Source: Hyphomicrobiales bacterium
GTDB taxonomy: Bacteria > Pseudomonadota > Alphaproteobacteria > Rhizobiales > Beijerinckiaceae
Assembly (NCBI GenBank): GCA_930633525.1
Contig: CAKNFP010000002.1
Coordinates: forward strand, 1,364,001-1,428,000
DNA length: 64,000 bases
Direction of reading: 5' to 3'
In this document: positions 18,003 through 36,406 of the stretch, one piece after another
How positions within the stretch are numbered: the stretch's first letter is position 1
Layout: every line of letters starts with the position of its first letter
Made by a program: the position numbers and the translations under genes
The notes under the pieces: model-generated
What the model saw: only the letters and a program-made list of their open reading frames with translations
Databases searched by the model: none
What the model was told of the DNA's origin: nothing

Positions 18003-18818
18003 TCATGAACCCACCTTGGCGAGCACATCGGCGCGCAGGAAGCGCTCGATGAACAGCATGAAAAGCACGGACGGCACTAGGAGGATCAGCGCCGTGATCG
18101 AGGCGACCTGATAGTTGCCGCCCATGGCCGCGTTGTAGAGCAGCAGGGGCAGCGTGATAACCTGCGGCACACCGACGAAGAACGTGCCGGTGAATTCGTC
18201 GAGCGATTCCAGGAAGACGAAGATGCCGCTGGCGATAATGCCAGGCGCCGCGAGCGGAAGCGTGATTGTGAAGAAGGTCCGCAGGGCGGAGGCGCCGATG
18301 TTGCGGGCGGCGAGTTCCAGATCCTTGTCGACGGCAGCGAAGGCGGCCGCCGCGATCCACACGGAATAGACGAGACCGTGTGCGGTATGCACCAGCACGA
18401 CACCGAGCACCGTGCCGTTGATCCCGAGATCGTAGAAGATGCGCGCCACGTTGATGTAGATCGCGACCGACGGAAACGCCTGGGGCAGGAGGAAGATGAT
18501 CATGAACAGGGCGCGCATCGGCAGCTTCAGACGCCCCAAGGCGTAGCCGGCCGGCACCGACAACGCCAGCGCGATCAGGACCGTCAGGACTGCAATCCAG
18601 ATCGACGTCCCGAGCGACGCCATGGCATCCCCCGTCGGGCGAAAGACCTGCTCCCAATAGCGGGTGCCGTAGACGACCGGCAGCTTATAGGGCGTGTACC
18701 AGCGCTCAGCCACCGACCACAGCGCCAGATTGGCCAGAGGACCGAACAGCAGGAAGGCGAAGACGACGAGGAGCGCGCTGGCCAGGGACGCGCGCAGCAA
18801 GGATGCGGCGCGGATCAC
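18003..18818 (-). CDS. ABC transporter permease (PotC/ThiP-like), transporter A
   Basis: This is a 271-residue inner membrane permease with six helices. The cytoplasmic EAA loop reads ELAARNIGASALRTFFTITLP and contacts the ATPase. Its GTG start overlaps the stop of permease 1 (GTGA, 18815-18818). The two permeases pair with the binding protein at 19810 and the ATPase at 20956 as a complete importer. It is last in the operon and abuts the DUF4214 fragment. Polyamine, Fe3+ and organophosphate importers share this architecture; the operator shared with the iol genes suggests an inositol-related substrate. Confidence 0.85.
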   Translation of the reverse strand: MIRAASLLRASLASALLVVFAFLLFGPLANLALWSVAERWYTPYKLPVVYGTRYWEQVFRPTGDAMASLGTSIWIAVLTVLIALALSVPAGYALGRLKLPMRALFMIIFLLPQAFPSVAIYINVARIFYDLGINGTVLGVVLVHTAHGLVYSVWIAAAAFAAVDKDLELAARNIGASALRTFFTITLPLAAPGIIASGIFVFLESLDEFTGTFFVGVPQVITLPLLLYNAAMGGNYQVASITALILLVPSVLFMLFIERFLRADVLAKVGS

Positions 18819-19651
18819 GGCGCGTTCTCCTTCGTCATGCCGTGCCTGAGATAGAGGATCGCGGCGCCGGCGCTGATGAGATAGGTGATGACGCCCAGCG
18901 CATTGGCGGTGGCATAGTCGCCATAGGCGTTGATCCGGAAAGCCATGTCGACCGTCAGCATGGTGGGTTGCGAGCCCGCCACCATCATCGGGACGGAGAG
19001 CACCGAGAGCATGGTGACGAAAGACAGGACGAGCGCGACGAGCAGCGTCGGCAGGACCTGAGGCAGGGCGAGTTCGACCAGCACCCGGAGCCGCGAGGCG
19101 CCGAGATTGCGTCCGGCCTCCAGGGTTGCCCGGTCGAGCGCAGCCAGCGCCCCGGCCAGAAGCAGCGCGACGAACGGCGTCTGCTTCCACACGAAGGTCG
19201 CGATGATGCCGCGCCAGTCGAGAAAGCTGACGGCTTGCAGGGGCTCCATCAGGCCCAAAGAGACGAACGTGTTGTTCATCAGCCCGTTCTTCGCAAGGAA
19301 GGTGCGCATGCATTGCGCGGCGACGATGAACGGGATGAACAGTGGCCAGCGGTAGAGGGCCCGGAGCGTGCCGACGATCCAGGGATTCTCGCCGAGCGTG
19401 AGCGTGCCCGCGATGGCGACCGCCGCAAGCGCCGTCAGGACACAGGACGAGACCACGATGACGATCGTGAAGAGGATGTCGCTGGAATAGAGTTCATAAG
19501 CTTTTGCGAAAGCCTGCAGCGAAAAGCCGCCATCCGGGCCGCTGAATGCCGAGATGAGGGAGAAGCACAGCGGATAGAGAAAAAGTGCGGCCACGAGTGC
19601 AAGACCGGGCGCGATCAGCAGCAAGGCAAGCTGACGTTGGGACAGGCTCAT
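18815..19651 (-). CDS. ABC transporter permease (PotB-like), transporter A
   Basis: This 278-residue permease starts MSLSQRQLALLLIAPGLALV and has six helices. Its EAA loop reads TLEAGRNLGASRLRVLVELA and then LPQVLPTL. It lies 158 bases downstream of the binding protein gene, across a strong stem-loop, and overlaps permease 2 by four bases. The pair is of the PotB/PotC type with separate permeases, unlike transporter B further right, in which both halves are fused. Confidence 0.85.
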   Translation of the reverse strand: MSLSQRQLALLLIAPGLALVAALFLYPLCFSLISAFSGPDGGFSLQAFAKAYELYSSDILFTIVIVVSSCVLTALAAVAIAGTLTLGENPWIVGTLRALYRWPLFIPFIVAAQCMRTFLAKNGLMNNTFVSLGLMEPLQAVSFLDWRGIIATFVWKQTPFVALLLAGALAALDRATLEAGRNLGASRLRVLVELALPQVLPTLLVALVLSFVTMLSVLSVPMMVAGSQPTMLTVDMAFRINAYGDYATANALGVITYLISAGAAILYLRHGMTKENAP

Positions 19652-19769
19652 GACGGCGATTCTCGGCAGGGGAGGGCGACGTCCCGGATGGGCGTGCCGG
19701 CAATGGCAATCCGAGGTCCATGCCTTCAGTCATTCAGGCGTGGAACCCGGCTCTTCAGTGTGTGGAGCA

Positions 19770-19796: not shown

Positions 19797-19809
19797 CGCA
19801 CGGCGACGC

Positions 19810-20940
19810 TCAGTTCGCGACCTTCTTCTCGTAGCCTTCCAGAATGTCGTTGAAGTAGGGCGCGATCGGGAAGGGCTTGGCGTTCGTCGAGAGATCAGCC
19901 GGGGTGATATCGGTGAAAAGCTTGTCCCAGGCGGCCTTGTCGAGCTTGCCCTCAAGGTTCTTGGCGTCGATGCCCGGGTACCAGTTGAACTTCTTGACGA
20001 TACCGTCCGCCTGGACCTGTGGGCTCGTGGCGAGCGCGATGAACTCGCTGGCGAGCTTCTGCTGCGCCGACTTCTCGGGGACCGCGTAATACATCGGCTG
20101 GCCGGGCATGCCGGGCGCTGCCAGCTTGAGCTTCATGTTCGGCGGCAGCTTGCCGTCAGCCTGCCAGGAATAGAACATGTCGACCCACACCGGACCCATG
20201 GCGATTTCGCCGCGGTTGAGCATGTCGAGCGTGCCGGCGTTGCCGGGGGTGATAACGACGTTCTTGTTGAAGTCCTTGAGTTCAGTGAAGGCCTTGTCCC
20301 ACTTGGCCTTTTCGGCCGGGTCATAGGGCCCCGTCATCAATTTTCCGGCATCGCCGCCGAAGGCATAGACCCAGCCGGCCACGAAGGCGACGCCCGACAT
20401 GCCGCCCTTGATGCCATTGTAGCCGAACTGCTTGGGGTTCTTCGTCACCCACTCCCTAAGCTCAACGAAATTGTTCGGCGGTGTCTTGAGCATATCGGCA
20501 TTGTAGGCGAGCGCCGTCTGGGACTGGAACATCGGCATGACATAGCCCGACACATCCGAACCAAGCGCGTTCTTGGCGGTCTCGCTGGACACCAGCTTGG
20601 CGGTATCCACCTTGTCCGTGTATTTCGCGAGGAGCCCCTCCTTCACCATGGCGCCCGCCGCCTTCTGGTGAATCACGACCACGTCGAAGTCACTGGCGCT
20701 GGCTCCCTTCTGGGCATCCAGCTTCTCGTAGATCTTCTGCGAGCCGGCATCGCCTGGACCAGTGCCGACGGAAACGACTTTCACGCCGGGATGGCTCTTC
20801 TCGAACAGGGGTCCGAGATAGTCCTTCACGTAGTCGACCATGTTCTGGTCGCCCGCGGAGGCGACGTTGAGGGTCTGCGCGTGGACGGGGGATGCTGCGG
20901 CAAGCGCCGCCAGTGAACAGGCGATGGTGAGGATGCGCAT
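19810..20940 (-). CDS. ABC transporter substrate-binding protein, transporter A
   Basis: This 376-residue periplasmic protein has a Sec signal (MRILTIACSLAALAAASPVHA, cleavage after HA). The mature part resembles the PotD/Fe3+-type bilobed proteins: LNVASAGDQNMVDYVKDYLG, FDVVVIHQKAAGAMV, and GEIAMGPVWVDMFYSWQADG in the hinge/pocket region. It is the second gene of the operon (15 bases after the ATPase gene). The substrate is not readable from sequence. Because its promoter carries the same palindrome as the iol divergent promoter, an inositol derivative is the leading inference. Confidence 0.85.
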   Translation of the reverse strand: MRILTIACSLAALAAASPVHAQTLNVASAGDQNMVDYVKDYLGPLFEKSHPGVKVVSVGTGPGDAGSQKIYEKLDAQKGASASDFDVVVIHQKAAGAMVKEGLLAKYTDKVDTAKLVSSETAKNALGSDVSGYVMPMFQSQTALAYNADMLKTPPNNFVELREWVTKNPKQFGYNGIKGGMSGVAFVAGWVYAFGGDAGKLMTGPYDPAEKAKWDKAFTELKDFNKNVVITPGNAGTLDMLNRGEIAMGPVWVDMFYSWQADGKLPPNMKLKLAAPGMPGQPMYYAVPEKSAQQKLASEFIALATSPQVQADGIVKKFNWYPGIDAKNLEGKLDKAAWDKLFTDITPADLSTNAKPFPIAPYFNDILEGYEKKVAN

Positions 20941-20955: not shown

Positions 20956-22068
20956 TTAGGCAGCAATGGCGGCCTCCGCCGCCGGGAAGATGTGAAGTCG
21001 CTCGGTGGGAATGCGAAGGCTGACCGCGCCGCCGGGTTCATGGCGCGCGGCGTCGTCGACGGTGATCTGCCGGCCGACCGCCTCGACGCGATAGCGGTAG
21101 AGCCCGCCGGGATAGCTGCGCGCGACGATCTGGCCTGGTACGAGGAGATCCCCGCGCGGATCGGCATCCGGCGCGTCCAGACTGGCGATATCGTCACGGA
21201 AATAGGCGACAGCCTCCCCTGCCGGGTGTGCCGGCGCATCCCTGTTCGTAAGGTGGACGACGGCGCCGCCGGCCTTCAGAACCGTCCCGCTCCCGGTGTG
21301 CTCGACATGCACGGGCAGGACGTTCTCCGCGCCCATGAAATTGGCGACGAAGGCGCTCGCAGGCTGGTCGTAAACCTCCTCGGGGCTTCCCACCTGGGCG
21401 ACCCGGCCGGCCTGCATGATGACGAGCCGATCCGCCATCGTCATGGCTTCCTCGCGATCATGGGTGACATGGATGGCGGTGACGCCGAGCCGCTGCTGGA
21501 TCGCGCGGATCTCGTGGCGCATGGTCATACGGATCTTGGCATCGAGATTCGACAGGGGTTCATCGAGCAGCAGGATGCCCGGATCGATGGCGAGCGCCCG
21601 CCCCAGCGCAACGCGCTGGCGTTGCCCGCCCGACAGCGCCGTAACCTTGCGCTCCTCGTAGCCGGACAGGCCGAGCATCGCGAGCAGGGAGGCCACCTTG
21701 GCCGTGATGTCCGCCTTCGGCTTGCCGCGCAGCCTCAGCCCGTAACCCATGTTCTGCAGCACGGTCATGTGCGGCCACAGGGCGTAGGACTGGAACACCA
21801 TCGCCATGCCGCGCTTTTCCGGCGGCAACGGCGCGACATCGCGGTTCCCGACGAGGATCGCCCCCGACGTGACCGGCACGAATCCGCACAGGGATCGCAG
21901 CAGGGTCGTCTTGCCGCAGCCCGACGAACCCAGAAGCGCCGTGAACGTGCCGGGAGCGAAATCGAGGCTGACGCCGTGTAGGACCGGCGTGCCACCATAG
22001 GCAACACGCAGATCACGAACCGCGATGGCCGCACCTGCGCACGACATGGCTTGCGTTTCCGCCTGCAC
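20956..22068 (-). CDS. ABC transporter ATP-binding protein, transporter A
   Basis: This 370-residue importer ATPase of the PotA/UgpC group has Walker A GSSGCGKTTL (about residue 40), Q-loop FQSYALWPHM, signature LSGGQRQRVALGRAL, Walker B ILLLDEPLSNLDA, switch His in IHVTHDREEAM, and a C-terminal TOBE regulatory domain from about residue 240. All catalytic residues are intact. It is the first gene of the operon (20956 upstream of binding protein and permeases) and reads away from the operator at 22107-22126. Confidence 0.92.
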   Translation of the reverse strand: MQAETQAMSCAGAAIAVRDLRVAYGGTPVLHGVSLDFAPGTFTALLGSSGCGKTTLLRSLCGFVPVTSGAILVGNRDVAPLPPEKRGMAMVFQSYALWPHMTVLQNMGYGLRLRGKPKADITAKVASLLAMLGLSGYEERKVTALSGGQRQRVALGRALAIDPGILLLDEPLSNLDAKIRMTMRHEIRAIQQRLGVTAIHVTHDREEAMTMADRLVIMQAGRVAQVGSPEEVYDQPASAFVANFMGAENVLPVHVEHTGSGTVLKAGGAVVHLTNRDAPAHPAGEAVAYFRDDIASLDAPDADPRGDLLVPGQIVARSYPGGLYRYRVEAVGRQITVDDAARHEPGGAVSLRIPTERLHIFPAAEAAIAA

Positions 22069-22106: not shown

Positions 22107-22126
22107 AATGGAATTAATCTTCCATT
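22107..22126. promoter_or_regulatory. Palindromic operator, copy 1 (AATGGAA-N6-TTCCATT)
   Basis: Perfect 7-bp arms flank a 6-base spacer TTAATC, in the 101-bp divergent gap between the transporter A operon and the cyclic phosphodiesterase gene. Identical arms and identical spacing occur at 29289-29308 beside rpiR. This fits a dimeric RpiR-family repressor site controlling both directions. Confidence 0.8.
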
Positions 22127-22848: not shown

Positions 22849-23652
22849 TCACGATCCCAGCATCCACTCATGCGCCGGGTCGTTGTGAAACTTCCAGATA
22901 CGCTTCGGTCCCGCCATGACATTGAGATAATACAGGTCGTAGCCATGGGGCGCGCCGACAGGATGGTAGCCGCGCGGCACAAGGACGACGTCGCCGTCCG
23001 CGAAGGCGAAGGTCTCATCGAGCGACCGGTCATCGGTGTAGACGCGCTGGAAGCCGAAGCCCTGCGGCGGGTGCAGCCGGTGATAGTAGGTTTCCTCGAG
23101 CTGCGACTCGGCGGGCAGCCTGTCCGCGTCGTGCTTGTGCGGCGGATAGCTCGACCAGCAGCCCGCGGGCGTAATGACCTCCACCACCAGCAAACCGTCG
23201 GCAGGCTCCGTCTCCGGCAGAATATTGCGCACGTGGCGGGTATTGCTGCCCTCGCCCCGCGTCTGGCAACCGACATCCCGTGGCGTGATGAGCCGCGCCG
23301 GACGTGCACCGACGACACCCGGCGCGGAGCATACCGCAACCTCGCAGGGACCCTCAGCCGTGATCGACCACTGCGATCCCGCTGGCACGTAAAGCGACCA
23401 CGGGTCGGCCTCGAAGGGCGAGGCACGGCCGCCGATGACGCCGAAATCGGTCTCGCCGGCCGTCGCGGTGACCTTGCCGGACAACAGCACGAGGCAGTGC
23501 TCGCGGTCGCCGGTGGCGCGGGTGAGCGTCTGGCCGTCCGCCAGCCGATGAACGGCGAAGCCCACATGGCTCCAGCCGGCGCTCTCCGGTGTTATGGTCT
23601 GCACGCATCCCTCGGCGTCGGCCGCCTGCGGCTTGACGAGTAACTTGGACAT
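22849..23652 (-). CDS. iolB: 5-deoxy-glucuronate isomerase
   Basis: This 267-residue cupin enzyme converts 5-deoxy-D-glucuronate to 5-dehydro-2-deoxygluconate (DKG) in myo-inositol degradation. Family features seen are REHCLVLLSGKVTA, PPHKHD (metal-binding histidines), LEETYYHRLHPPQGFGFQRVY and VLVPRGYHPV. The ATG at 23652 opens MSKLLVKPQAADAEG, the usual start, and the length is normal. It is the last gene of the iolC-D-E-B run, 13 bases after iolE, and converges with the phosphodiesterase gene. Confidence 0.93.
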   Translation of the reverse strand: MSKLLVKPQAADAEGCVQTITPESAGWSHVGFAVHRLADGQTLTRATGDREHCLVLLSGKVTATAGETDFGVIGGRASPFEADPWSLYVPAGSQWSITAEGPCEVAVCSAPGVVGARPARLITPRDVGCQTRGEGSNTRHVRNILPETEPADGLLVVEVITPAGCWSSYPPHKHDADRLPAESQLEETYYHRLHPPQGFGFQRVYTDDRSLDETFAFADGDVVLVPRGYHPVGAPHGYDLYYLNVMAGPKRIWKFHNDPAHEWMLGS

Positions 23653-23665: not shown

Positions 23666-24565
23666 TCAGGCGAGCCCCGCCTCCTTGAGACTTTGCTTGA
23701 GATGGGCAACGCCCTTTTTCGCATAGGTGAGCGGATGCGCCTTTTCCGGATCCTGCTCGGCCTCGACGACGACCCAGCCGGAATAGCCCGGCAACGCCTT
23801 GAACACGGCAGCATAGTCGACCATGCCGTCGCCCGGCACCGTATAGACGCCGAGTTCGCCTCCCTTGCCCAGCACCGCATCGAGGAAGCTCCAGTCCTCG
23901 GCACGCGCCTGTTCCATCACGGGGCGGCGCACATCCTTGGCATGCACATGGCTGATGCGCGGGCGATAGCGCCGCGCGAGCGCGGCCGGATCGGCCCCGC
24001 CCCAGGTGGCATGGCCGGTGTCGAGCAGGAGATGCACGACCTCGCCGGTCGCTGCCATGAAGGCGTTGATATCGGCCTCGCTCTCGACGATCGTGCCCAT
24101 GTGGTGGTGGTAGACCAGCCGCACACCCTCCGCGTAGGTCCGCTCGGCGACCTCCGTGATGCACCGGCCGAACTCCGCCCAGTCGCCGGCCTTCATCACC
24201 GGCCGTTGCGACAGGGGCCGCGACCGGTCGCCATGGATGGCGTTCGAGGTTTCGGCGAAGACGAGCACGGTTGAGCCCATCGCCTTCAGGAGGTCGAGAT
24301 GCGGCCTGAGATGCTGCATCTCGACCTCGGCGTCGCGGCGCAACAGTTCGGCCGAATACCAGCCGGAGATACAGGCCATGCCGAAGGGCGCGAGCGCGGC
24401 CTTCAGCGCCTCCGGTTCGCGCGGGAACTTGTGGCCGAGCTCCATGCCCTCGAATCCGGCCTCGCGCGCCTCAGCGAGGCAGGTCTCCAGCGTGGTGGCG
24501 CCGCCGATATCCTGCAGGTCGTCGTTCGACCAACCGATGGGGTTGGCGCCGATGCGAATTGCCAT
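23666..24565 (-). CDS. iolE: myo-Inosose-2 dehydratase
   Basis: This 299-residue TIM-barrel protein removes water from 2-keto-myo-inositol to give 3D-trihydroxycyclohexane-1,2-dione. Diagnostic stretches are IGANPIGWSNDD at the start, FEGMELGHKFP, VRLVYHHHMGTIVES (metal ligands), LLLDTGHATWGGADP and RISHVHAKDVR. The motifs and length are complete. It lies 12 bases downstream of iolD and is co-transcribed. Confidence 0.95.
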   Translation of the reverse strand: MAIRIGANPIGWSNDDLQDIGGATTLETCLAEAREAGFEGMELGHKFPREPEALKAALAPFGMACISGWYSAELLRRDAEVEMQHLRPHLDLLKAMGSTVLVFAETSNAIHGDRSRPLSQRPVMKAGDWAEFGRCITEVAERTYAEGVRLVYHHHMGTIVESEADINAFMAATGEVVHLLLDTGHATWGGADPAALARRYRPRISHVHAKDVRRPVMEQARAEDWSFLDAVLGKGGELGVYTVPGDGMVDYAAVFKALPGYSGWVVVEAEQDPEKAHPLTYAKKGVAHLKQSLKEAGLA

Positions 24566-24577
24566 GTCGTCCTCGTC

Positions 24578-26419
24578 TCAGTTGTCGCGCCGCGCGAGCG
24601 CCTCGTCGTAGTGGCGGCGCGCCGCCTTGACCTCGTCACGCACGGACATTTCGGGCACCGCGACATCCCACCAATGGCCGCCGGCATCGGTGGAGGCCAG
24701 AGGGTCCGTGTCGATCACGATGACGCTGGTGCGGTCATGGCCGCGCGCCTCCGCGAGCGCACTCTCGAGCTCGGCGAGGCCGCCCACCTTGCGCGAGAGG
24801 GCCCCCAGCGACGCCGCATGCGCGGCGAAATCGATCTCCGGCAGCGTCTCATGGCGGGTGTCACGCAACAGATTGTTGAAGGGCGCGCCGCCGGTGGCAT
24901 TCTGCAGGCGGTTGATGCAGCCGAAGCCGTGGTTGTCGAGCACGACGATAGTCAGCTTCGCGCCCAGCATCACCGAGGTGGCGATCTCTGAATTCATCAT
25001 GAGGTAGGAGCCATCGCCGACCATGACGATGACGTCGCGCGCCGGATCGGCGAGCTTGGCGCCTAGCCCGCCGGCGATCTCGTAGCCCATGCAGGAATAG
25101 CCGTATTCCATGTGGTAGCCGCCGGGCGCCCCGGGCTGCCAGAGCTTGTGCAACTCGCCGGGTAGGCCCCCGGCCGCGCACAGCACGATATCGCTCGGTG
25201 CGCTCTGGCGCTGGACGGCGCCGATCACCTGGGCATCGCTCGGCAGGTCAGCGTTCCCCGCCGCCGTGTAGCGCGCCGCGGTCTCGAGCCAGTCCGCGCG
25301 GGCGGCCTCGGCGCCGGCGCGCCACGCCGCCGGCGCCGTCCAGCCCGCCAGCGCCGCGGTAATTCCCGCAAGGCCTGCCTTCGCATCGGCGACTAGCGGC
25401 CGCGCGCGGTGCTTGCCGGCATCGAAGGCCTGCGTGTTCAGGCCGATGATCTGAACGGCGGGATCATCGAACAGCGTCCAGGAGCCGGTGGTGAAATCCT
25501 GCAGCCGCGTCCCGACAGCCAGCACGACATCGGCGCGCCGTGCCGCCTCGTTGGCGGCGGCCGTACCGGTGACGCCGATGGCGCCCAGATTCAGCGGATG
25601 TCCGTGTGGCAAGCTGCTCTTGCCGCCCTGGGTCTCCGCCGCCGGGATGCCGTGTGCGGTGCAGAATTCCGCGAGCGCCTGTTCCGCCTCGCTGTAGAGC
25701 ACGCCACCGCCGGCCACCACCAGTGGGCGCCTCGCATCCCGGAGGAGCGCGATCGCCTGTTCAAGTTCCGCCTCGTCCGGCCGCAGGCGCCGAGGCCGCC
25801 AGAGGCGCTCGGCGAAAAAGCTCTCGGGATAATCATAGGCCTCGGTCTGCACGTCCTGGCAGAGCGCGAGCGTCACCGGCCCGCAATCGGCCGTGTCGGT
25901 CAGCACCTGCATCGCCCGGTCGAAGGCCGGAATGAGCTGCTCGGGTCGCGTGATGCGATCGAAATAGCGCGAAACCGGGCGAAAACAGTCGTTCGCGGAG
26001 ACGGTGCCGTCCCCGAAATCCTCGATCTGCTGCAAGACCGGGTCCGGCCGGCGTCCGGCGAAAACGTCGCCGGGAAGCAGCAGCAGCGGCAGGCGGTTGA
26101 CATGGGCGACGGCAGCCGCCGTGACCATGTTGGTCGCGCCCGGTCCGATCGAGCTCGTCACCGCCATCATCCGCCGCCGCCGCGCGGTCTTGGCGAAGGC
26201 GATGGCCGCATGCGCCATGGCTTGCTCGTTGTGGGCGCGAAGCGTGGGCAGGCGGTCGCGCGCACCATGGAGCGCCTCGCCGAGCCCGGCGACATTGCCA
26301 TGTCCGAAGATCGCCCAGACGGCCGCGAAGATCGGTTCCACCCGTCCCCCGACCATCGTCTTCTGTGCCGCCATGGCTGCGACCAGCGCCTGCGCCATGG
26401 TGAGCCTTACTGTTGCCAT
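24578..26419 (-). CDS. iolD: 3D-(3,5/4)-trihydroxycyclohexane-1,2-dione acylhydrolase
   Basis: This 613-residue ThDP-dependent enzyme opens the inositol ring to give 5-deoxy-glucuronate. The ATG at 26419 (MATVRLTMAQALVAAMAAQK) follows GGAGGGGG, and the open frame extending upstream overlaps iolC and was not used. Visible features are GHGNVAGLGEAL, the activating region SSIGPGATNMVTAAA, central domain VLAVGTRLQDFTTGSW, and the cofactor site EYGYSCMGYEIAGGLGAKLA followed by VMVGDGSYLMMNSEIATSV and NHGFGCINRLQ. All expected motifs are present. Confidence 0.95.
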   Translation of the reverse strand: MATVRLTMAQALVAAMAAQKTMVGGRVEPIFAAVWAIFGHGNVAGLGEALHGARDRLPTLRAHNEQAMAHAAIAFAKTARRRRMMAVTSSIGPGATNMVTAAAVAHVNRLPLLLLPGDVFAGRRPDPVLQQIEDFGDGTVSANDCFRPVSRYFDRITRPEQLIPAFDRAMQVLTDTADCGPVTLALCQDVQTEAYDYPESFFAERLWRPRRLRPDEAELEQAIALLRDARRPLVVAGGGVLYSEAEQALAEFCTAHGIPAAETQGGKSSLPHGHPLNLGAIGVTGTAAANEAARRADVVLAVGTRLQDFTTGSWTLFDDPAVQIIGLNTQAFDAGKHRARPLVADAKAGLAGITAALAGWTAPAAWRAGAEAARADWLETAARYTAAGNADLPSDAQVIGAVQRQSAPSDIVLCAAGGLPGELHKLWQPGAPGGYHMEYGYSCMGYEIAGGLGAKLADPARDVIVMVGDGSYLMMNSEIATSVMLGAKLTIVVLDNHGFGCINRLQNATGGAPFNNLLRDTRHETLPEIDFAAHAASLGALSRKVGGLAELESALAEARGHDRTSVIVIDTDPLASTDAGGHWWDVAVPEMSVRDEVKAARRHYDEALARRDN

Positions 26420-26456
26420 CGCCCCCTCCTCACGGCCGCCGCGGCTCAAGCCCTCG

Positions 26457-28406: not shown

Positions 28407-29193
28407 CTGCCTGTGCTTTCTCGGCAGTGCCCACCGCCAGCGTCATGGCGAGGGCGAAGGTGGCGGCCATGGAGCGGAAGGCACCGTAATCGGCCTCCTG
28501 CACTTCCAGCCACAAATGGCAATTCCGTGCCAGCGGGCTGAGCGGGCCGTCGGTGAGGGCAATCACGGGGACACCGCGGTTATGGGCATCCGCCGCAATG
28601 TCGATGATCTCGGGTGTATAAGGAGCACAGCTTACCGCGAGCAGGACGTCGTCGGCGCGTGCCACGAAGGCCTGCGCCGCACCGAGCCCGGCGATCTGGT
28701 CGACCAGGATAGCGCGGATGCCGAGCTTGCCGAACGCGTAGGCGAGATAGGACACGACCGGGAACATACGCCGCGCGCCCACCAGGACGATGCTTTGAGC
28801 CCCGGCGAGTAGATCGGTCGCGCGGTCGATATCCGCATGGATCACGCTGGATTCGAGCTGGTCCAGCGAATTGCGGCTTGCTGCGACGAAGCCCTCAAGT
28901 AAAACGCGCGCCATGTCCGGGCCCGCCGCACCTTCGCCGCGCAACGTCTCGATTCGCTCGCGATAGTCTGGAAACTGCTGGCGCAGCCGCGCGCGAAATA
29001 CTTGTTGGAGTTCGCTGAACCCGGAAAAATCCAGAGCCTGCGCGAAGCGAACGAGCGTCGAGGCCTGAACGCCCGCACGTTGCGCCACCTGCGCGGCCGT
29101 CAGCAGCGCCATGTCGTCGGGGTTCGACAATGCGAAATCGGCGACTTGCCGCAGGCGTTTGGGCAACGCCTCGGCGCGGTCGCGCAGACGCAT
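28399..29193 (-). CDS. MurR/RpiR family regulator of inositol genes
   Basis: This 264-residue repressor has an N-terminal HTH (LLTAAQVAQRAGVQASTLVR, then FAQALDFSGFSELQQVF) and a C-terminal SIS sugar-phosphate-binding domain (SIVLVGARRMFPVVSYLAYAFG). I chose ATG 29193 because GAGGGG at 29200-29205 lies six bases upstream; the longer frame to 29307 would start inside the operator palindrome and has no ribosome site. The gene overlaps iolC. RpiR proteins usually sense phosphorylated sugars, which suits a pathway fed by inositol phosphates or sensing DKG-phosphate. The likely binding sites are at 29289-29308 and 22107-22126. Confidence 0.88.
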   Translation of the reverse strand: MRLRDRAEALPKRLRQVADFALSNPDDMALLTAAQVAQRAGVQASTLVRFAQALDFSGFSELQQVFRARLRQQFPDYRERIETLRGEGAAGPDMARVLLEGFVAASRNSLDQLESSVIHADIDRATDLLAGAQSIVLVGARRMFPVVSYLAYAFGKLGIRAILVDQIAGLGAAQAFVARADDVLLAVSCAPYTPEIIDIAADAHNRGVPVIALTDGPLSPLARNCHLWLEVQEADYGAFRSMAATFALAMTLAVGTAEKAQADD

Positions 29194-29288
29194 TATGAAC
29201 CCCTCATACTCGGATCGGGCATGCTCGCGGGATAACGCTGGGGACATGAGGATGAAAGCTTCTTCGACCTTGACTTGGCGCCCCCGAG

Positions 29289-29308
29289 AATGGAATATTT
29301 GTTCCATT
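29289..29308. promoter_or_regulatory. Palindromic operator, copy 2 (AATGGAA-N6-TTCCATT)
   Basis: The 7-bp arms are the same as at 22107-22126, here with spacer TATTTG. It lies in the divergent promoter region between rpiR-iolCDEB (left) and SDR-iolG-transporter B (right), 96 bases from the chosen rpiR start and 31 bases from the SDR start. The right flank is AT-rich and should hold the plus-strand promoter. Confidence 0.85.
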
Positions 29309-29338: not shown

Positions 29339-30160
29339 TTGGTGGTGGGAGCGGCCAAATTGCCTCAAGCGGACGCCTATAGCCGAGACCTTGGCGGCAA
29401 GGTCGCGATCGTCACCGGCGGCACGCAAGGCCTCGGCGAAGCGATCGCGCGCGAATTCGTGGCGCGCGGCCTCACCGGCCTCGTCGTGACCGGCCGGAAT
29501 CGCGAACGCGGCGAATCAGTCGCGACCGCCTTAGCCGAGCAGGGGTGCCGTGCCGTTTTCCACCCCGCCGATCTCGCCGATCCTGATGCCGTGCAGGGCA
29601 TCATCCCCGCTGCCGAACGCCAGTTCGGCCGGCTCGACATTCTCGTCAATGCCGCCGGCGATACCGACCGCGGCACGATCCTCGACACCTCGTCCGAGCT
29701 CTATAACAGGATTATGGCGGTCAACCTCACGGCGCCGTTCTTCCTGATCCAGCACGCCGCCAATCTGATGCGGCGCCTCGGGATAGCCGGCACGATCGTG
29801 AACATCCAGTCGATGTCGGCCCACGGCGGCCAGCCCTTCCTCGCAGCCTACAGCGTGTCGAAAGGCGCCCTCGCCACGCTGACGCGCAACGCCGCCTACG
29901 GACTGCGCGCCGACCGGATCAGGGTCAACGGGCTCAATATCGGCTGGATGGCGACACCGGGCGAGGATGCCATTATGCGCCTGCGCCACGGCGCCGAGGA
30001 CGGCTGGCTGGAGGAGGCCGCGAGTGCGCAGCCTTTCGGCCGGCTCGTCGATCCCCGCGAGGTGGCGAAGGCGGTCGCCTATCTCGCCTCCGGCGAATCG
30101 GGGCTGATGACCGGCGCCAATATCGACTTCGACCAGACCATTCTCGGCGCCCACGACTGA
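29339..30160 (+). CDS. SDR family oxidoreductase of the inositol cluster
   Basis: This 273-residue classical short-chain dehydrogenase has the NAD(P) motif TGGTQGLGEAIA (TGxxxGxG), NAAG, active-site Ser in IVNIQSMSAHGG and YSVSK (Tyr-x-x-x-Lys). The start is a GTG at 29339. It is the first gene of the plus-strand operon, followed 19 bases later by iolG. Likely it oxidises a polyol or an inositol stereoisomer (for example scyllo- or D-chiro-inositol), or an intermediate of the pathway; substrate is not readable. Confidence 0.85.
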   Translation: MVVGAAKLPQADAYSRDLGGKVAIVTGGTQGLGEAIAREFVARGLTGLVVTGRNRERGESVATALAEQGCRAVFHPADLADPDAVQGIIPAAERQFGRLDILVNAAGDTDRGTILDTSSELYNRIMAVNLTAPFFLIQHAANLMRRLGIAGTIVNIQSMSAHGGQPFLAAYSVSKGALATLTRNAAYGLRADRIRVNGLNIGWMATPGEDAIMRLRHGAEDGWLEEAASAQPFGRLVDPREVAKAVAYLASGESGLMTGANIDFDQTILGAHD

Positions 30161-30179
30161 CCGAACGACGGATAGGGAT

Positions 30180-31178
30180 ATGAACATGCGGTTTGGACTT
30201 CTCGGCGCAGGCAGGATCGGGCGCATCCACGGGCTCAACGTCGCGGCGCGCGGCGATGCCCGGCTGGTCGCGGTGGCGGATGCCTCCGCCGAGGCTGCCG
30301 CCTCCCTGGCAGAGCTCGCGGGCGCCGAGGTGGCCGGTGCCGAGGCCATTCTCGGCAATCCCGAAATCGACGCGGTGATGATCTGCACACCGACGGACAC
30401 CCATGCCGATCTCATCGAGAAAGCGGTCTCCGCAGGCAAGGCCGTGTTCTGCGAGAAGCCGGTCGATCTCGACGCCGCCCGCATCCGCCGCTGCCTCGAT
30501 ATCGTGGAAAAGTCAGGCAGGCCGTTGATGATCGGCTTCAATCGCCGCTTCGACCCCAATTTCGCGGCGCTCGAGAAGCGGCTGCGGCAGGGCGAGGCCG
30601 GCGAGATCGAGATTGTCAGCGTGATCTCGCGCGATCCCGGCCCCCCACCGGTCGACTATGTCAGGCGCTCGGGCGGCCTGTTCCGCGACATGATGATTCA
30701 TGATTTCGACATGGCCCGCTTCCTCCTGGCCGAAGAGCCGGTGGAGGTCTTCGCGCTTGGCTCCGCGCTCGTTGACAAGGCGATCGGCGAAGCGGGCGAC
30801 GTGGACACCGCGGCCGTGGTGATGAAGACGGCGAGCGGACGCATCGCCCAGATTTCCAACTCGCGCCGCGCGACTTACGGCTATGACCAACGCATCGAGG
30901 TGCATGGCGCGAAGGGCATGCTGCGCGCGGGCAATATCCACGAGACCACAGTCGAGATCGCGACGGGCAGCGGCTTCAGGACCGATCCCGTTCAGAATTT
31001 CTTTCTCGAGCGCTATGCCGCAGCCTACCGGGCGGAACTCGATGCCTTCGTCGCGGTCTGCGCCGGCAAGGCCGCGCCGTCGCCGGACGGCTACGACGGC
31101 CTGCGCGCCCAACTTCTCGCCGATGCCGCCACCCTGTCCGCGCGCACCGGCAAGCCCGTCACGATAGAGGTCGCATGA
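30180..31178 (+). CDS. iolG: Inositol 2-dehydrogenase (Gfo/Idh/MocA family)
   Basis: This 332-residue NAD-dependent enzyme oxidises myo-inositol to 2-keto-myo-inositol, the entry step for iolE. The N-terminal Rossmann motif is GLLGAGRIGRIHG, the catalytic-lysine motif CEKPVDLD is at about residue 93, and GGLFRDMMIHDFDMARFLL matches the conserved HDxD region of inositol dehydrogenases. The length is typical. Its stop overlaps the start of the phosphatase gene, so dehydrogenation and dephosphorylation genes are coupled. Confidence 0.92.
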   Translation: MNMRFGLLGAGRIGRIHGLNVAARGDARLVAVADASAEAAASLAELAGAEVAGAEAILGNPEIDAVMICTPTDTHADLIEKAVSAGKAVFCEKPVDLDAARIRRCLDIVEKSGRPLMIGFNRRFDPNFAALEKRLRQGEAGEIEIVSVISRDPGPPPVDYVRRSGGLFRDMMIHDFDMARFLLAEEPVEVFALGSALVDKAIGEAGDVDTAAVVMKTASGRIAQISNSRRATYGYDQRIEVHGAKGMLRAGNIHETTVEIATGSGFRTDPVQNFFLERYAAAYRAELDAFVAVCAGKAAPSPDGYDGLRAQLLADAATLSARTGKPVTIEVA

Positions 31179-31972
31179 TGACGCCCACCGAACTCGCATT
31201 GCGCTTCTATGCCGTGCAGGGCCTGGCGCTGGAAGCCGGGCGCATCGCGCTCGACTATTTCGCCAGGCAGGACAGCCTCGGCGTCACCATGAAAGGCGAT
31301 CAGGACTGGTTGACCGTCGCGGACGGCGCCGTTGAAGACTTCCTGCGCCAGCGGCTCGCCCTGCTCTTCCCAACCGACACGATCATCGGTGAGGAAGGGG
31401 GTGGCGAGGCCAGCGACGCGGTCTGGATCATCGATCCCATCGACGGCACGTCCAATTTCGCGCGCGGTGACCGCAACTGGTGCATCTCGATCGGCTTCCT
31501 CTCGAACCGGGTCCCGACGATCGGGATCGTGTTCGCGCCGGCCTTTGAGGAGCTTTACGTGGCACAGCGAGGGCAAGGCGCGACGATGAACGGGCAGCCC
31601 ATCACCGTCTCCGGCGGCAGCGACATCAAGCGCGCTTATGTCGAGCTCGGCTGGTCGTCGCGGATTCCCGCCGAGCGTTATGTCGAGCTCGTTGCGCGCG
31701 GCTTCGCCGCGGGCAGCTCGATGAAGCGCGCGGCCTCCGGGGCGCTCGGCCTCTGCCATGTCGCGAACGGGCGCACCGACGCCTATGCCGAACTGCATAT
31801 CAACGCCTGGGATGTGGCTGCGGGCCTTGTGATCGCTGGCGAAGCCGGCGCGTCGATCAATGACTTTTTTGCCGGAGATGGCATCAGCAAGGGCAATCCC
31901 ATCCTGTGTTGTACGCCGGCATTAGCGCGCCAACTCGGTGAGATCACCGGGATTGCCGTGACGGCGCGGTAG
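31175..31972 (+). CDS. Inositol monophosphatase family protein
   Basis: This 265-residue Mg2+-dependent phosphatase carries the IMPase motifs: GEEGGGE (metal 1), WIIDPIDGTSNFARG (motif DPIDGT, fully intact) and INAWDVAAGLVIAGEAGA (motif WDxxAG). Members hydrolyse inositol-1-phosphate, related sugar phosphates or PAP. The ATG at 31175 overlaps the iolG stop (ATGA). Between an inositol dehydrogenase and an AfuABC-like importer, the most economical role is to strip phosphate from imported inositol phosphate before oxidation. Confidence 0.92.
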   Translation: MMTPTELALRFYAVQGLALEAGRIALDYFARQDSLGVTMKGDQDWLTVADGAVEDFLRQRLALLFPTDTIIGEEGGGEASDAVWIIDPIDGTSNFARGDRNWCISIGFLSNRVPTIGIVFAPAFEELYVAQRGQGATMNGQPITVSGGSDIKRAYVELGWSSRIPAERYVELVARGFAAGSSMKRAASGALGLCHVANGRTDAYAELHINAWDVAAGLVIAGEAGASINDFFAGDGISKGNPILCCTPALARQLGEITGIAVTAR

Positions 31973-32052
31973 TTTGCGACGACGGCGAACGGGCTCTCCG
32001 TCGCCGAAAACGGAATCGAAGAACGCAAAGTTCTCGTTTGAGGGAGGTGACT

Positions 32053-33084
32053 ATGCAGTTGAAATTCTGGCTCGGCGCGAGCGTGCTCGCGACCGCTGCG
32101 ATGTTTGGTTCGGCCCCGGCTTCGGCACAGGGCTCGCTCGTCATGTATTGCGGCGTCCAGGAGGAATGGTGCCGCGCGATGTCGACCGCCTTCGAGAAGG
32201 AGACCGGCATCAAGGTCGCGATGACCCGCAAATCGGCCGGCGAGGTCTACGCGCAGGTCAAGGCCGAGGCCTCCAATCCGCGCGGCGACATCTGGTGGGG
32301 CGGAACCGGCGATCCCCATCTGCAGGCGGCGGAAGAAGGCCTGACCCTTGAATACGAATCGCCGATGAACAAGGACCTGCAGGATTGGTCCCTGTCACAG
32401 TGGAAGGCCGCGCAGAAGCGCGCGATCGGCATCTACGCCGGCGCACTCGGCTTCGGCTACAACACGCAGTTGATTAAGGAAAAGGGGCTTGCCGACCCCA
32501 AATGCTGGGCCGACCTGCTCAATCCCAAGCTGAAGGATGACGTACAGGTCGCCGATCCGAACTCCTCGGGCACCGCCTACACATTGCTTGCGACGGTCGT
32601 TCAGTTGATGGGCGAGGACAAGGGCTTCGACTATCTTCGTGCGCTGCACAAGAACGTCAGCCAATATACGAAGTCCGGCGCGGCGCCGGCCAAGGCCGCA
32701 AGTCTCGGCGAAACCGCGGTCGGCATCGTCTTTATCCACGACGCCGTTGTCTTCGCGGTGCAGGGCGATCCGATCAAGCCCGTCGCGCCATGCGAGGGCA
32801 CCGGTTACGAAATCGGTTCGATGTCGATCATCAAGGGCGCTCGCAATCTCGAGAACGCCAAGAAGTTCTACGACTGGGCGCTGACTCCCGCCGCACAGGC
32901 GCTCGGCGCGGGCGCGAAGTCGTACCAGGTGCCGTCCAACAAGAATGCGCCTGTGCCGCCGCAGGCGCCGGACATGTCGCAGATGAAGCTCATCAACTAC
33001 GACTTCGTCAAATACGGGTCCTCGGCCGAGCGCACCCGGCTGCTGACCAAGTGGGACAAGGAGGTCAAGGCGCAGCCGAAGTAA
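32053..33084 (+). CDS. ABC transporter substrate-binding protein, transporter B (AfuA-like)
   Basis: This 343-residue periplasmic protein has a signal peptide (FWLGASVLATAAMFGSAPASA). The mature sequence has LVMYCGVQEEWCRAMSTAFE, NPRGDIWWGGTGDPHLQAAE and DPNSSGTAYTLL, the layout of the Fe3+-type cluster that includes AfuA, which binds hexose phosphates rather than iron. The typical ferric-tyrosine pair of true iron proteins is not evident by eye. GGGAGG at 32041-32046 fits the ATG at 32053. It is the fourth gene of the SDR-iolG-phosphatase operon. An AGAAC-GCAAA-GTTCT palindrome lies just upstream (about 32020-32034). Confidence 0.85.
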   Translation: MQLKFWLGASVLATAAMFGSAPASAQGSLVMYCGVQEEWCRAMSTAFEKETGIKVAMTRKSAGEVYAQVKAEASNPRGDIWWGGTGDPHLQAAEEGLTLEYESPMNKDLQDWSLSQWKAAQKRAIGIYAGALGFGYNTQLIKEKGLADPKCWADLLNPKLKDDVQVADPNSSGTAYTLLATVVQLMGEDKGFDYLRALHKNVSQYTKSGAAPAKAASLGETAVGIVFIHDAVVFAVQGDPIKPVAPCEGTGYEIGSMSIIKGARNLENAKKFYDWALTPAAQALGAGAKSYQVPSNKNAPVPPQAPDMSQMKLINYDFVKYGSSAERTRLLTKWDKEVKAQPK

Positions 33085-33112
33085 AGCCGCGTAATATCCG
33101 GAGAGAACGCCC

Positions 33113-35329
33113 ATGCGCGCCTCGACACGGTTAGCCCTGCTGATCGGCTGGCTCGGTTTTGTACTCATTCCCTGGTATCTGCCCCAGGGCGGGAGTCTCG
33201 CCGGCTATCCCTTTGGCGAGGCGGGAACGGCATTGGCGCTCGTTCTCTCCGGAGCCACCCCGTGGCTTATACCGACAGGTCTCGCGCTTGTTGCCGCGAG
33301 CCTTCTGGTGGGCCGCGAGGAGCAGCCTTGGATCGGTCGCAGCCTTGTCTGGATCGGCCTTCTCGGCCTGATCGCCTTTTTCGTCCAGGGCTTCGCGATC
33401 ACACTGCCCGACCAGGGCATTCCCTGGCTGGCGGCCCTCTTCGGCGGCGCCGGCCAGGCGCAGCCCGGCATGGGCTTTGGCGCGCTCCTGACGCTGTTCT
33501 CCCTGCTCCTCATGATGTGCCACGGCCTGGCCTACCGTGGCTATTGCAGGGGGGATATCTTCACCACCTCGGCGATCGGGATCGTCGTGCTGCTGATCGG
33601 CCTTTTCGTCTTCTACCCCGTGGCGACGATCCTCCAGAGCGCACTGGTCGAATCGGACGGCACGCTTGCGCTCTCCAGCTTCTTGGAGCGCCTCCTGCAC
33701 CCGACGATCTGGGGTCTTGGCTGCCTCGGCGGCGGCACCAACTGCGGCGTCGCCTGGAATACGCTGATCCTCGCCGTGCTGACGGGCGTCATCACGACCC
33801 TGCTCGGGCTTGCCTGTGCCCTGCTCGTTCTGCGCACGCGCATGCCCGGCAAGCGGCTGATGCGTGCGATGACGGTTTTGCCGATCATCACGCCACCCTT
33901 CGTCATTGGTCTCGCGCTCATTCTGCTCTTCGGGCGGTCCGGTGCGATCACCGGCATCCTCGCGGAGTGGTTCGGAATCCCGCGTTCGCGCTGGATCTAT
34001 GGTTTGCCGGGTGTCCTGCTTGCGCAGGTTCTCGCCTTCGCACCGATCGCCTTCCTCGTCCTGATGGGCACGGTCCAGGGCATAGCGCCGAGCATGGAGG
34101 AGGCCGCGCAGACGCTGGGCGCCAAGCACTGGTCGACCTTCCGCACGGTGACCTGGCCATTGTTGCGGCCCGGGCTCGCCAATGCCTTCCTGCTCGGCTT
34201 CGTCGAGAGCATGGCCGATTTCGGCAATCCGCTCGTCCTCGGTGGCAATTTCGAAGTGCTGTCCACCAAGATCTTCTTTGCCGTCGTCGGCGCGGCGCAC
34301 AACCAGGGGCAGGCGGCGGTGCTCGCCATCGTGCTGCTGGCATTCACGCTTGGCGCCTTCTGGGTCCAGCAGCGCTGGCTCGGTTCCAAATCCTATACGA
34401 CCGTTGCCGGCAAGGGCGATTCAGGCATTCCGGCGATGCTGCCTACCTCCGCGAAGGTCGTATCCGCGATCGTGATCGTGCCGTGGGTGCTGCTGACCGC
34501 GGTGATCTATGCCGTGATCCTCATCGGCGGCTTCGTGAAGGCCATGGGCCGCGATCACACCTTGACGCTGGAGCACTATCGCACCGGCTTCGCGATCGAC
34601 TTCAGCAACGGGATTTTCTTTGAGGGCGCGGCCTGGCCATCGCTGTTCACGACGCTGAAAGTCGCCGCGATCTCCTCGCCGCTAACGGCGTTGATCGGGT
34701 TGATCACCGCGTTCCTGCTGACGCGGCAGCATTTCGCGGGACGGCGCACGCTTGAATTCACGACGATGCTGAGCTTCGCCATCCCGGGCACCGTGCTCGG
34801 CGTCGCTTATATTCTCGCGTTCAACGTGCCGCCGGTCGAAATCACCGGCACGGGCCTCATCCTCGTGCTGGCTTTCGTGTTCCGGAACATGCCGGTGGGT
34901 GTCCGCTCCGGCATTGCGGGTCTCGCGCAGATCGACAAGAGTCTCGACGAGGCGTCGATGACGCTGCGGGCGCGCAGCTTCACGACCCTGCGCCGCGTCG
35001 TGCTGCCCCTGCTCAAACCGGCGCTGATCACCGCCCTGGTTTACAGCTTCGTGCGCTGCATCACCTCGGTCAGCGCGGTCATCTTCCTCGTCTCGGCCGA
35101 GTACAATCTGGCGACGGCCTATATCGTCGGTCGCGTCGAGGCTGGCGAATTCGGCCTCGCCATCGCCTATTCATCGGTCCTGATCGTGGTCATGGCCGTG
35201 GGCATCGCGCTGATCCAGGTCGGCGTCGGCGAACGCAAGCTCGGCCGCCGCGCGGTTCCCGTTCCCAAGCCGAAAGCCCCAAAGCAAACCGCGCGCCTGA
35301 CGAAACCCGCCGTCGAATCCGTCAAATAG
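33113..35329 (+). CDS. ABC transporter fused double permease, transporter B (AfuB-like)
   Basis: This 738-residue protein has about twelve or more helices with two complete BPD permease domains. The first EAA loop reads SMEEAAQTLGAKHWSTFRTV then TWPLLRPG (about residue 330); the second reads SLDEASMTLRARSFTTLRRV then VLPLLKPA (about residue 610). Four extra N-terminal helices precede the first domain. A single long permease with paired binding protein and ATPase is the AfuABC/FbpB layout. The C-terminal tail is basic and cytoplasmic. It starts 28 bases after the binding-protein stop. Confidence 0.88.
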   Translation: MRASTRLALLIGWLGFVLIPWYLPQGGSLAGYPFGEAGTALALVLSGATPWLIPTGLALVAASLLVGREEQPWIGRSLVWIGLLGLIAFFVQGFAITLPDQGIPWLAALFGGAGQAQPGMGFGALLTLFSLLLMMCHGLAYRGYCRGDIFTTSAIGIVVLLIGLFVFYPVATILQSALVESDGTLALSSFLERLLHPTIWGLGCLGGGTNCGVAWNTLILAVLTGVITTLLGLACALLVLRTRMPGKRLMRAMTVLPIITPPFVIGLALILLFGRSGAITGILAEWFGIPRSRWIYGLPGVLLAQVLAFAPIAFLVLMGTVQGIAPSMEEAAQTLGAKHWSTFRTVTWPLLRPGLANAFLLGFVESMADFGNPLVLGGNFEVLSTKIFFAVVGAAHNQGQAAVLAIVLLAFTLGAFWVQQRWLGSKSYTTVAGKGDSGIPAMLPTSAKVVSAIVIVPWVLLTAVIYAVILIGGFVKAMGRDHTLTLEHYRTGFAIDFSNGIFFEGAAWPSLFTTLKVAAISSPLTALIGLITAFLLTRQHFAGRRTLEFTTMLSFAIPGTVLGVAYILAFNVPPVEITGTGLILVLAFVFRNMPVGVRSGIAGLAQIDKSLDEASMTLRARSFTTLRRVVLPLLKPALITALVYSFVRCITSVSAVIFLVSAEYNLATAYIVGRVEAGEFGLAIAYSSVLIVVMAVGIALIQVGVGERKLGRRAVPVPKPKAPKQTARLTKPAVESVK

Positions 35330-35344
35330 GGACCATAGACCGCC

Positions 35345-36406
35345 ATGTCCAAGGCCGGCCCTGCCTCCGTAGAGTTCCGCAACGTCAGCATGCGCTATGG
35401 CGCCGTGACGGCCGTCGACAATGTCAGCTTCGCGATCGAGGCCGGGCAGCTCGTCACGCTGCTCGGGCCTTCCGGCTGCGGCAAGACGACAACGCTGCGC
35501 ATGATTGCGGGCCTGGAGATCGCCAGCGAAGGCGAGATCCTCATTGGCGGAAAGGACGTCACCCATCTGTCGGCGGCAGACCGCGACGTCAGCATGGTGT
35601 TCCAGTCCTATGCCCTGTTCCCGCATATGAGCGTGCTGGAGAATGCGGCCTATGGCCCGACGGTGAAGGGAATGCCGAAGGCCAAGGCGCAGGAGATGGC
35701 CCTGGAGAAGCTGGCCCTCGTTGGCCTGAAGGGCTTCGAGAAACGTTACCCCTCCGAGCTCTCCGGCGGCCAGCAGCAGCGCGTCGCCGTCGCGCGCGCG
35801 CTCGTCCTGGAACCGCAGGTGCTGCTCTTCGACGAGCCTTTATCGAACCTCGACGCCAAGCTCCGGCGCAAGGTGCGGCAGGAAATCCGCGACCTGCAGC
35901 AGTCCCTCAATCTGACAGTGGCCTATGTCACCCATGACCAGGAAGAAGCTCTAGCGGTTTCGGACAAGATCATCGTGATGTCGAATTCCCGGGTTGCGCA
36001 GCAGGGCTCGCCGCGTGAGCTCTACGAGGCCCCGTCGGACGCTTTCGTCGCGGATTTCATCGGTGACGCGAACCTCCTCGACGTCGCGGTGACCGCGGTC
36101 GCGAATGGCTCTGCGGAGATCGCACTCGGGCCGGCCCGCCTCACCCTGCCCTCGCGCGGGCTACCGGTCGGGCCCGCAAAGATAGCGATCAGGCCGCACA
36201 GCCTGCTGGTCAGCGAGCCTGGCTTGCCGAACGGTCTTCCGGGAATAGTCCGCAAAAGTTCCTATCTCGGCAATCACGTGGATCTCATCGTGGAAAGCCC
36301 GGTCGGGGAACTCTTCGTGATCAGTCCGGACACCCAGCGTCCCCCTGCGGCCGGCGACAGCATCGCGCTCGCCTTCGCGGAAACGGGCCTCGTGCTGGTG
36401 CCGTGA
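35345..36406 (+). CDS. ABC transporter ATP-binding protein, transporter B (AfuC/FbpC-like)
   Basis: This 353-residue ATPase has Walker A GPSGCGKTTTLRMIAG, signature LSGGQQQRVAVARAL, Walker B VLLFDEPLSNLDAKL, the switch His in VTHDQEEALAVSD and a C-terminal TOBE domain (about residues 240-353). All key residues are intact. It ends the plus-strand inositol operon and completes an importer with the two preceding genes. What follows (36423 on) is of different character, so 36406 is the right edge of the catabolic block. Confidence 0.92.
   Translation: MSKAGPASVEFRNVSMRYGAVTAVDNVSFAIEAGQLVTLLGPSGCGKTTTLRMIAGLEIASEGEILIGGKDVTHLSAADRDVSMVFQSYALFPHMSVLENAAYGPTVKGMPKAKAQEMALEKLALVGLKGFEKRYPSELSGGQQQRVAVARALVLEPQVLLFDEPLSNLDAKLRRKVRQEIRDLQQSLNLTVAYVTHDQEEALAVSDKIIVMSNSRVAQQGSPRELYEAPSDAFVADFIGDANLLDVAVTAVANGSAEIALGPARLTLPSRGLPVGPAKIAIRPHSLLVSEPGLPNGLPGIVRKSSYLGNHVDLIVESPVGELFVISPDTQRPPAAGDSIALAFAETGLVLVP

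Follow-up and report, generated by a model that had tools for sequence, protein, structure and literature searches.

A probable IolR-controlled gene cluster for uptake and use of phosphorylated inositol in a bacterium of the family Beijerinckiaceae

In Caulobacter and its relatives the motif GGAA-N6-TTCC precedes the iol genes of inositol catabolism as well as the genes of an inositol importer, and it has been reported that an RpiR-family regulator, IolR, controls these genes and that mutating one copy of the motif raises iolC expression (Boutte 2008, PMC2597717). The solute-binding protein (SBP) of another importer, AfuA of AfuABC, is described as binding hexose and heptose phosphates, with the ligand residues His205, Asp206 and Glu229 and the phosphate residues Ser37 and Thr150 (PMC4546632). 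Here we describe the gene content, operators, conservation and binding residues of a cluster in a 64,000-nucleotide stretch of DNA (hereafter the window; contig CAKNFP010000002.1 of assembly GCA_930633525.1, positions 1,364,001 to 1,428,000, forward strand) from a soil-type Hyphomicrobiales bacterium of the family Beijerinckiaceae, where iol genes stand beside two ABC importers, A and B, a 2H phosphodiesterase and an inositol-monophosphatase-family phosphatase (IMPase). Our reading of these sequences is that the cluster is probably an IolR-controlled regulon for feeding on phosphorylated inositol, with importer A serving a phosphodiester and importer B a monophosphate. In favour of this assignment are an operator already known for IolR, the linkage of the genes in several genera, their joint occurrence with iolD, and the ligand triad shared with AfuA.

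The cluster (18003-36406) consists of four gene rows forming two divergent pairs. In the first pair importer A (minus strand, in the order ATPase-SBP-permease-permease) faces the 2H gene (plus strand), and in the second rpiR-iolC-iolD-iolE-iolB (29307 down to 22849) faces SDR-iolG-IMPase-SBP-permease-ATPase (29339 to 36406). The features are:

18003..18818, minus strand: permease A2 of importer A (BPD_transp_1; PF00528, 57.8 bits)
18815..19651, minus strand: permease A1 of importer A (BPD_transp_1; PF00528, 41.8 bits)
19810..20940, minus strand: solute-binding protein A, SBP-A (PF13416, 85 bits)
20956..22068, minus strand: ATPase A (PF00005, 116.5 bits)
22109..22124, no strand: IolR operator TGGAATTAATCTTCCA, between the importer A and 2H genes (GGAA-N6-TTCC motif of PMC2597717)
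22170..22706, plus strand: 2H phosphodiesterase, CPDase family (PF07823, 31.8 bits; Pfam cut-off 21)
22849..23652, minus strand: iolB (TIGR04378, 343 bits; cut-off 205)
23666..24565, minus strand: iolE (TIGR04379, 380 bits; cut-off 290)
24578..26428, minus strand: iolD, start approximate to a few codons (TIGR04377, 935 bits; cut-off 715)
26457..28406, minus strand: iolC fused to an aldolase domain, DUF2090 (NF047869, 725 bits; cut-off 600; PF09863, PF00294)
28399..29307, minus strand: RpiR/SIS regulator, IolR by position and operator (PF01418, PF01380)
29291..29306, no strand: IolR operator TGGAATATTTGTTCCA, in the rpiR/SDR divergent promoter (GGAA-N6-TTCC motif)
29339..30160, plus strand: SDR oxidoreductase, recurring in iol clusters (NF004847, 390 bits; cut-off 240)
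30180..31178, plus strand: iolG, inositol 2-dehydrogenase (TIGR04380, 444 bits; cut-off 355)
31175..31972, plus strand: IMPase (PF00459, 188 bits; cut-off 27)
32053..33084, plus strand: SBP-B, AfuA-like organophosphate-binding protein (AfuA 4r72, 314 bits; P5PA 6wce, 265 bits)
33113..35329, plus strand: two-domain permease B (PF00528, two stretches)
35345..36406, plus strand: ATPase B (PF00005, 128.6 bits; TOBE_2)

An earlier note on this DNA had listed a complete iolC/D/E/B run plus iolG, and all five products score above the curated cut-offs of their profile models (with iolB corrected to 22849-23652). With IolC in its bifunctional kinase/aldolase form, the inositol pathway as far as the aldolase step is encoded locally; the SDR may take part in inositol oxidation, judging from its gene context, and the RpiR-family regulator adjoins the iol genes as in IolR regulons. 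Other parts of the described layout also hold: the IMPase start codon (ATG, 31175) precedes the end of iolG (31178) by a 4-bp overlap, an importer of AfuABC layout lies in the iolG/IMPase row with AfuA as the closest relative of its SBP in the PDB, and the second importer diverges from a 2H gene whose product exceeds the CPDase cut-off. The 436-amino-acid open reading frame (ORF) listed at 18003 extends upstream of the true permease gene, and the permeases of importer A are those at 18003-18818 and 18815-19651. The same cluster is present in Chelatococcus asaccharovorans DSM 6462 (G001), of the same genus, at 90-98% identity per protein and 80% for the 2H protein.

The window has exactly two copies of the palindrome TGGAA-N6-TTCCA, against 0.02 expected, and each divergent promoter holds one of them. 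That one palindrome ties both gene pairs, as claimed before, is thus correct as to its presence at both promoters, but the element is not new, since it equals the GGAA-N6-TTCC motif and is the already-described IolR operator. In the whole genome there are eight exact places, much the same as the seven of a reversed control pattern, and the other six all fall inside predicted ORFs. The rpiR ORF as listed has its start in an overlap with the copy at 29291, and its true start is therefore probably internal. Among the SBP-A loci that we surveyed by name (the best 80 of 445), 28 of the 33 close loci, i.e. those whose importer A ATPase is at least 70% identical to that of the window, have an exact operator at most 120 bp upstream of the importer. 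For 23 of these 28 a screen of the fetched DNA at 55% identity found none of iolB, iolC, iolD, iolE and iolG (the contigs of L081 and L108 are short, and L075, one of the 23, retains SDR-IMPase-importer B); an operator before importer A where no iol gene is linked ties this importer to inositol. Over all 80 loci the 30 exact sites have 16 distinct spacers and constant half-sites, and just five further exact operators occur in the 1.52 Mb of the same loci, with an expectation of 0.0004 per 120 bp. Organism G028 (locus L117) has the iol cluster on one contig and importer A on another, each with the operator. Before the SDR gene of 13 iol loci the operator is exact in seven, has one mismatch in three and is absent from three (L027 and L114, among these three, being one and the same site).

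In Bosea genome G078 (L134 3011) the operator precedes a gene for a rhizopine-type SBP (341 bits vs a cut-off of 420), perhaps a free-inositol importer of the same regulon. The window's own genome has no relative of this protein at 1e-40, IbpA itself not having been searched.

Within the family, SBP-A is present in 27 of 149 genomes and all 27 have iolD, compared with 42 of the 122 genomes lacking importer A (3e-11 in a one-sided Fisher test that ignores relatedness, with an iolD threshold that admits proteins near 50% identity). Likewise, at 1e-50 iolD was matched in 19 of 20 named genomes with importer A, in that of L063 at just 51% identity. Moreover, importer A adjoins iol genes in Bosea (L058, L059, L061), Bradyrhizobium (L071, L075) and distant metagenome-assembled genomes (L114, L120, L125). 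Specifically, L114 has the order iolD-iolE-SDR-EEP-A-IMPase; in L120 a row of iolD-E-B, IMPase and metallophosphoesterase, with iolC before it, converges with importer A; and in L125 importer A lies between rpiR and SDR-iolG. Permease A2 is kept in 78 of the 80 loci, the other two (L106, L108) ending before its position. SBP-A has no sequence relative in the PDB at E 1e-3, UgpB included; its structure was predicted with a pLDDT of 89.9, and UgpB is among its near folds, where many unrelated SBPs score alike.

The 2H protein has both HxT/S motifs and a predicted CPDase fold, the nearest fold being the Arabidopsis cyclic nucleotide phosphodiesterase (1fsi, 1jh6). Window-type 2H genes were found in 13 genomes (5 of 60 and 10 of 297, two being common), each time beside SBP-A. 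An exception, a 2H gene without SBP-A, is on a plasmid of Paracoccus seriniphilus (L189), where the 2H protein (annotated hypothetical), an IMPase, a LacI, a UgpC-type importer and a Na/Pi cotransporter are together; the two enzymes are hence linked independently of importer A. In 58 of the 80 loci a phosphodiesterase of one of four unrelated families lies within 6.5 kb of importer A (2H 35, one of them, L116, only a remnant; EEP 16; SpdA-like 5; RNase-Z-like 2), the queries having come from the surveyed SBP-A loci themselves. In 374 kb of control sequence, twenty stretches from genomes that carry SBP-A, there was no such phosphodiesterase and one IMPase. For the family survey 19 of 28 SBP-A places were fetched, as 20 stretches (G001 twice). 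The 2H proteins were aligned using 21 of the 35 matches and the window; ten were omitted first (L081 and L116 as partial, the rest as near-duplicates), followed by L074 (a stop in the aligned stretch) and the near-duplicates L077, L080 and L109. In L116 (8597-8760, Bradyrhizobium sp. Ec3.3) the 39-residue 2H remnant is immediately followed by an IMPase 82% identical to that of the window, divergent from importer A.

The IMPase scores 121 bits with the inositol-1-monophosphatase equivalog model NF008027 vs a curated 332, and it is also below the SuhB and HisN cut-offs. An IMPase lies within 6.5 kb of importer A in six of the 80 loci (L063, L075, L114, L116, L120, L123), and the order IMPase-A-LacI-2H is seen in L173 and L174 and on the Rhizobium plasmids L187 and L188. 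Importer A, a phosphodiesterase and an IMPase thus occur together in these last four, in Klebsiella (L191), on an E. coli plasmid (L190) and in Marinomonas (L123), and together with iol genes in L114 and L120. In the Klebsiella locus and on the E. coli plasmid, which is conjugative, importer A is accompanied by genes annotated as ribonuclease Z and inositol monophosphatase, and the former label may be wrong in function.

For importer B, SBP-B has AfuA (4r72) as its closest PDB relative at 314 bits, followed by P5PA (6wce) at 265 bits. Its H229, D230 and E253 correspond to the AfuA triad and T174 to Thr150, and these four residues are kept in 30 of 30 SBP-B rows compared (L027 and L114 being one place); at the position of Ser37 SBP-B has Ala62, with Ser61 beside it, and Ala, Ser or Thr is found across the rows. 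The kinship with AfuA, the triad and the adjoining IMPase make B look like an organophosphate importer with a cargo that needs dephosphorylation; inositol monophosphate would be the simplest candidate, as iolG stands in that row too. Among 22 SBP-B loci (20 fetched, mostly top matches; L014 and L027 are included in the count) SBP-B has the IMPase next to it in 18, and ten hold iol or iolG genes. SBP-B (1e-100) is found in 44 of the 149 genomes, and 37 of these 44 have iolD vs 32 of the 105 others, with relatedness ignored. With the model of the 2-aminoethylphosphonate SBP PhnS2 (TIGR03261) SBP-B scores 209.9 bits, below the curated 392.75.

On this basis the cluster may work as follows. The RpiR protein (IolR) would repress both divergent promoters until inositol catabolism yields an inducer. 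The cargo of importer A would be a phosphodiester of inositol, and the likeliest candidates are two breakdown products of phosphatidylinositol, myo-inositol 1,2-cyclic phosphate and glycerophosphoinositol. The 2H enzyme, taken as cytoplasmic, would open this cargo to inositol monophosphate; importer B would bring in inositol monophosphate directly. The IMPase, presumably cytoplasmic too, would strip the phosphate from both cargoes, and IolG/SDR, IolE, IolD, IolB and the fused IolC kinase/aldolase would degrade the inositol, with phosphate, and glycerol from the glycerol form, as by-products. Since the 2H enzyme might also release glycerol by way of the cyclic form, genomes cannot tell the cyclic ester from glycerophosphoinositol. 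The earlier note had coupled A to the phosphodiesterase and B to the phosphatase, with both feeding the Iol pathway; operator, linkage, iolD co-occurrence and triad agree with this, but the IMPase also stands beside A in several genera, and the phosphatase may thus not belong strictly to B. More tentatively, and with somewhat less than an even chance of being right, importer A could define a widespread and hitherto undescribed cassette for import and salvage of inositol 1,2-cyclic phosphate and related phosphodiesters, reaching from Alphaproteobacteria to Klebsiella, in which 2H, EEP, SpdA-like metallophosphoesterase and RNase-Z-like enzymes interchange, often with an IMPase.

Several observations weigh against a regulon for phosphorylated inositol. 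Tandem SBP-B paralogues (56-63%) also carry the triad and AfuA itself binds hexose and heptose phosphates (PMC4546632), so the triad does not point to inositol. In nine of the 22 loci IMPase and SBP-B occur without iol genes in the 20 kb fetched, hence the SBP-B family may have more than one cargo, and seven of the 44 SBP-B genomes lack iolD. Five of the 33 close loci have no exact operator (four have one mismatch and L082 has two), and Bosea AAP35 (G134, the genome of L082), which has both A and iolD, has none anywhere in its genome; outside the close group the operator is present in only two of 47 loci, many of which instead show a LacI-type gene close to importer A. In 22 of the 80 SBP-A loci (16 of the 66 with full flanks) no phosphodiesterase of the four families lies within 6.5 kb, and Marinomonas balearica, with A, an MBL enzyme and an IMPase, has no iolD at 1e-50 (one of 20 genomes). 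Finally, the window's own genome holds a second SBP-A/importer A set of 63% identity away from iol. This set (G000:C2:1936953-1938062, L032) lies near a 2-hydroxyacid dehydrogenase gene, and the 20 kb fetched around it contain no iol cluster.

Some of these points fit other explanations. Importer A might carry nucleoside 2',3'-cyclic phosphates from RNA breakdown, the 2H, SpdA-like or RNase-Z-like enzyme opening the ring and the IMPase-family enzyme removing the 2'- or 3'-phosphate to give nucleosides. S. meliloti SpdA is reported to be a 2',3'-cNMP phosphodiesterase (PMC4222275), the nearest fold of the 2H protein belongs to a cyclic nucleotide phosphodiesterase, and Marinomonas has A without iolD; we nevertheless regard this as improbable given the IolR operator before A where iol is unlinked, iolD in 27 of 27 family genomes with A, and A inside the iol clusters of L114, L120 and L125, although nucleoside genes may be present among the recurring neighbours of A. 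It is somewhat less improbable, albeit still unlikely, that A is a general importer of glycerophosphodiesters with a Ugp-like role, salvaging phosphate and glycerol with inositol as one of several head groups. In L062, L064 and L113/L030, A is accompanied by another importer, Ugp-like by eye, and by an EEP phosphodiesterase more than 6.5 kb off, on the Paracoccus plasmid a UgpC-annotated importer and a Na/Pi cotransporter stand with the 2H, IMPase and LacI genes, and UgpB is among the (unspecific) near folds of SBP-A; the IolR operator, the iol linkage and an IMPase as the recurrent companion speak against this role.

Importer B, in turn, could be an ordinary AfuABC hexose-phosphate importer (glucose-6-phosphate, fructose-6-phosphate, sedoheptulose-7-phosphate) recruited beside iol, its cargo not being inositol phosphate. 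The score to AfuA, the conserved His-Asp-Glu and Thr150 and the nine B-IMPase loci without iol all suit such an importer, which we give about the same low likelihood as a general glycerophosphodiester role for A: B shares one row with iolG and the IMPase under an IolR operator, its genomes are enriched for iolD, and a hexose-6-phosphate needs no phosphatase before use. That A/2H and iol/B are separate systems, adjacent by accident in Chelatococcus, would be in line with most Bosea loci and all 22 named Microvirga loci, where the flank fetched around A has no iol gene; with the operator shared by unlinked loci and the adjacency recurring in Bosea, Bradyrhizobium and distant metagenome-assembled genomes, chance is already disfavoured and appears very unlikely.

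Elsewhere in the window, 14663-15622 (minus strand) encodes a TIR-domain protein (PF10137, CAP12/Pycsar effector TIR; PADLOC PDC-S35, 222 bits), a candidate defence gene with no partner match among the three neighbours scanned. After a cytochrome c oxidase set (8400-13363), a 238-amino-acid ORF at 13933-14649 (plus strand) matches positions 24-109 of a biotin carboxylase N-terminal model and is possibly a gene remnant.

The iol catabolic pathway, its regulator and operator and the AfuABC and 2H families are already known. In titles and abstract starts we found neither two importers for phosphorylated inositol under IolR nor this gene combination, in agreement with the earlier note, which knew of no described system combining these parts; nor was anything on point found there about bacteria taking up phosphorylated inositol intact. 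Soils and hosts commonly contain inositol phosphates and glycerophosphoinositol. If our preferred reading of a phosphorylated-inositol regulon is true, two generically named importers and a protein annotated as hypothetical in one relative become one testable pathway, and phosphodiesterases such as SpdA, the biological role of which was left open by its own authors (PMC4222275), gain a candidate natural substrate. The wider importer A cassette, if real, would give orphan enzymes such as SpdA-like and 2H proteins a physiological substrate.

Compared with known systems, the cluster is like the alphaproteobacterial IolR module of Caulobacter and S. meliloti, as reported in PMC2597717, in its RpiR regulator, GGAA-N6-TTCC motif, iol genes and an ABC importer under the operator; the importer described there is IbpA-IatA-IatP for free inositol, whereas the window has two other importers, a phosphodiesterase and a phosphatase. 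SBP-B is a relative of the Actinobacillus AfuABC system (PMC4546632) with the AfuA triad kept, but in the context of inositol catabolism with a phosphatase. The P5PA pyridoxal-phosphate importer (PMC8427247), when aligned, is without the AfuA Asp and Glu, both of which SBP-B has. By description, not by sequence, importer A resembles the agrocinopine Acc system (AccA importer, AccF phosphodiesterase; PMC4526662, PMC7356202), where import of a sugar phosphodiester is also followed by a phosphodiesterase. The cargo of Acc is agrocinopines, that of the window presumably inositol esters. In Acc a phosphatase, AccG, acts as a later step, and the regulator is another than that of the window cluster. 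Ugp, a glycerophosphodiester importer coupled to the phosphodiesterase UgpQ, has import and phosphodiesterase in common with importer A, which differs in its phosphodiesterase families and IMPase companion. Finally, the Arabidopsis CPDase has the fold and both HxT/S motifs of the 2H protein at 21% identity and acts on ADP-ribose 1'',2''-cyclic phosphate, while the presumed substrate of the window 2H enzyme is an inositol ester.

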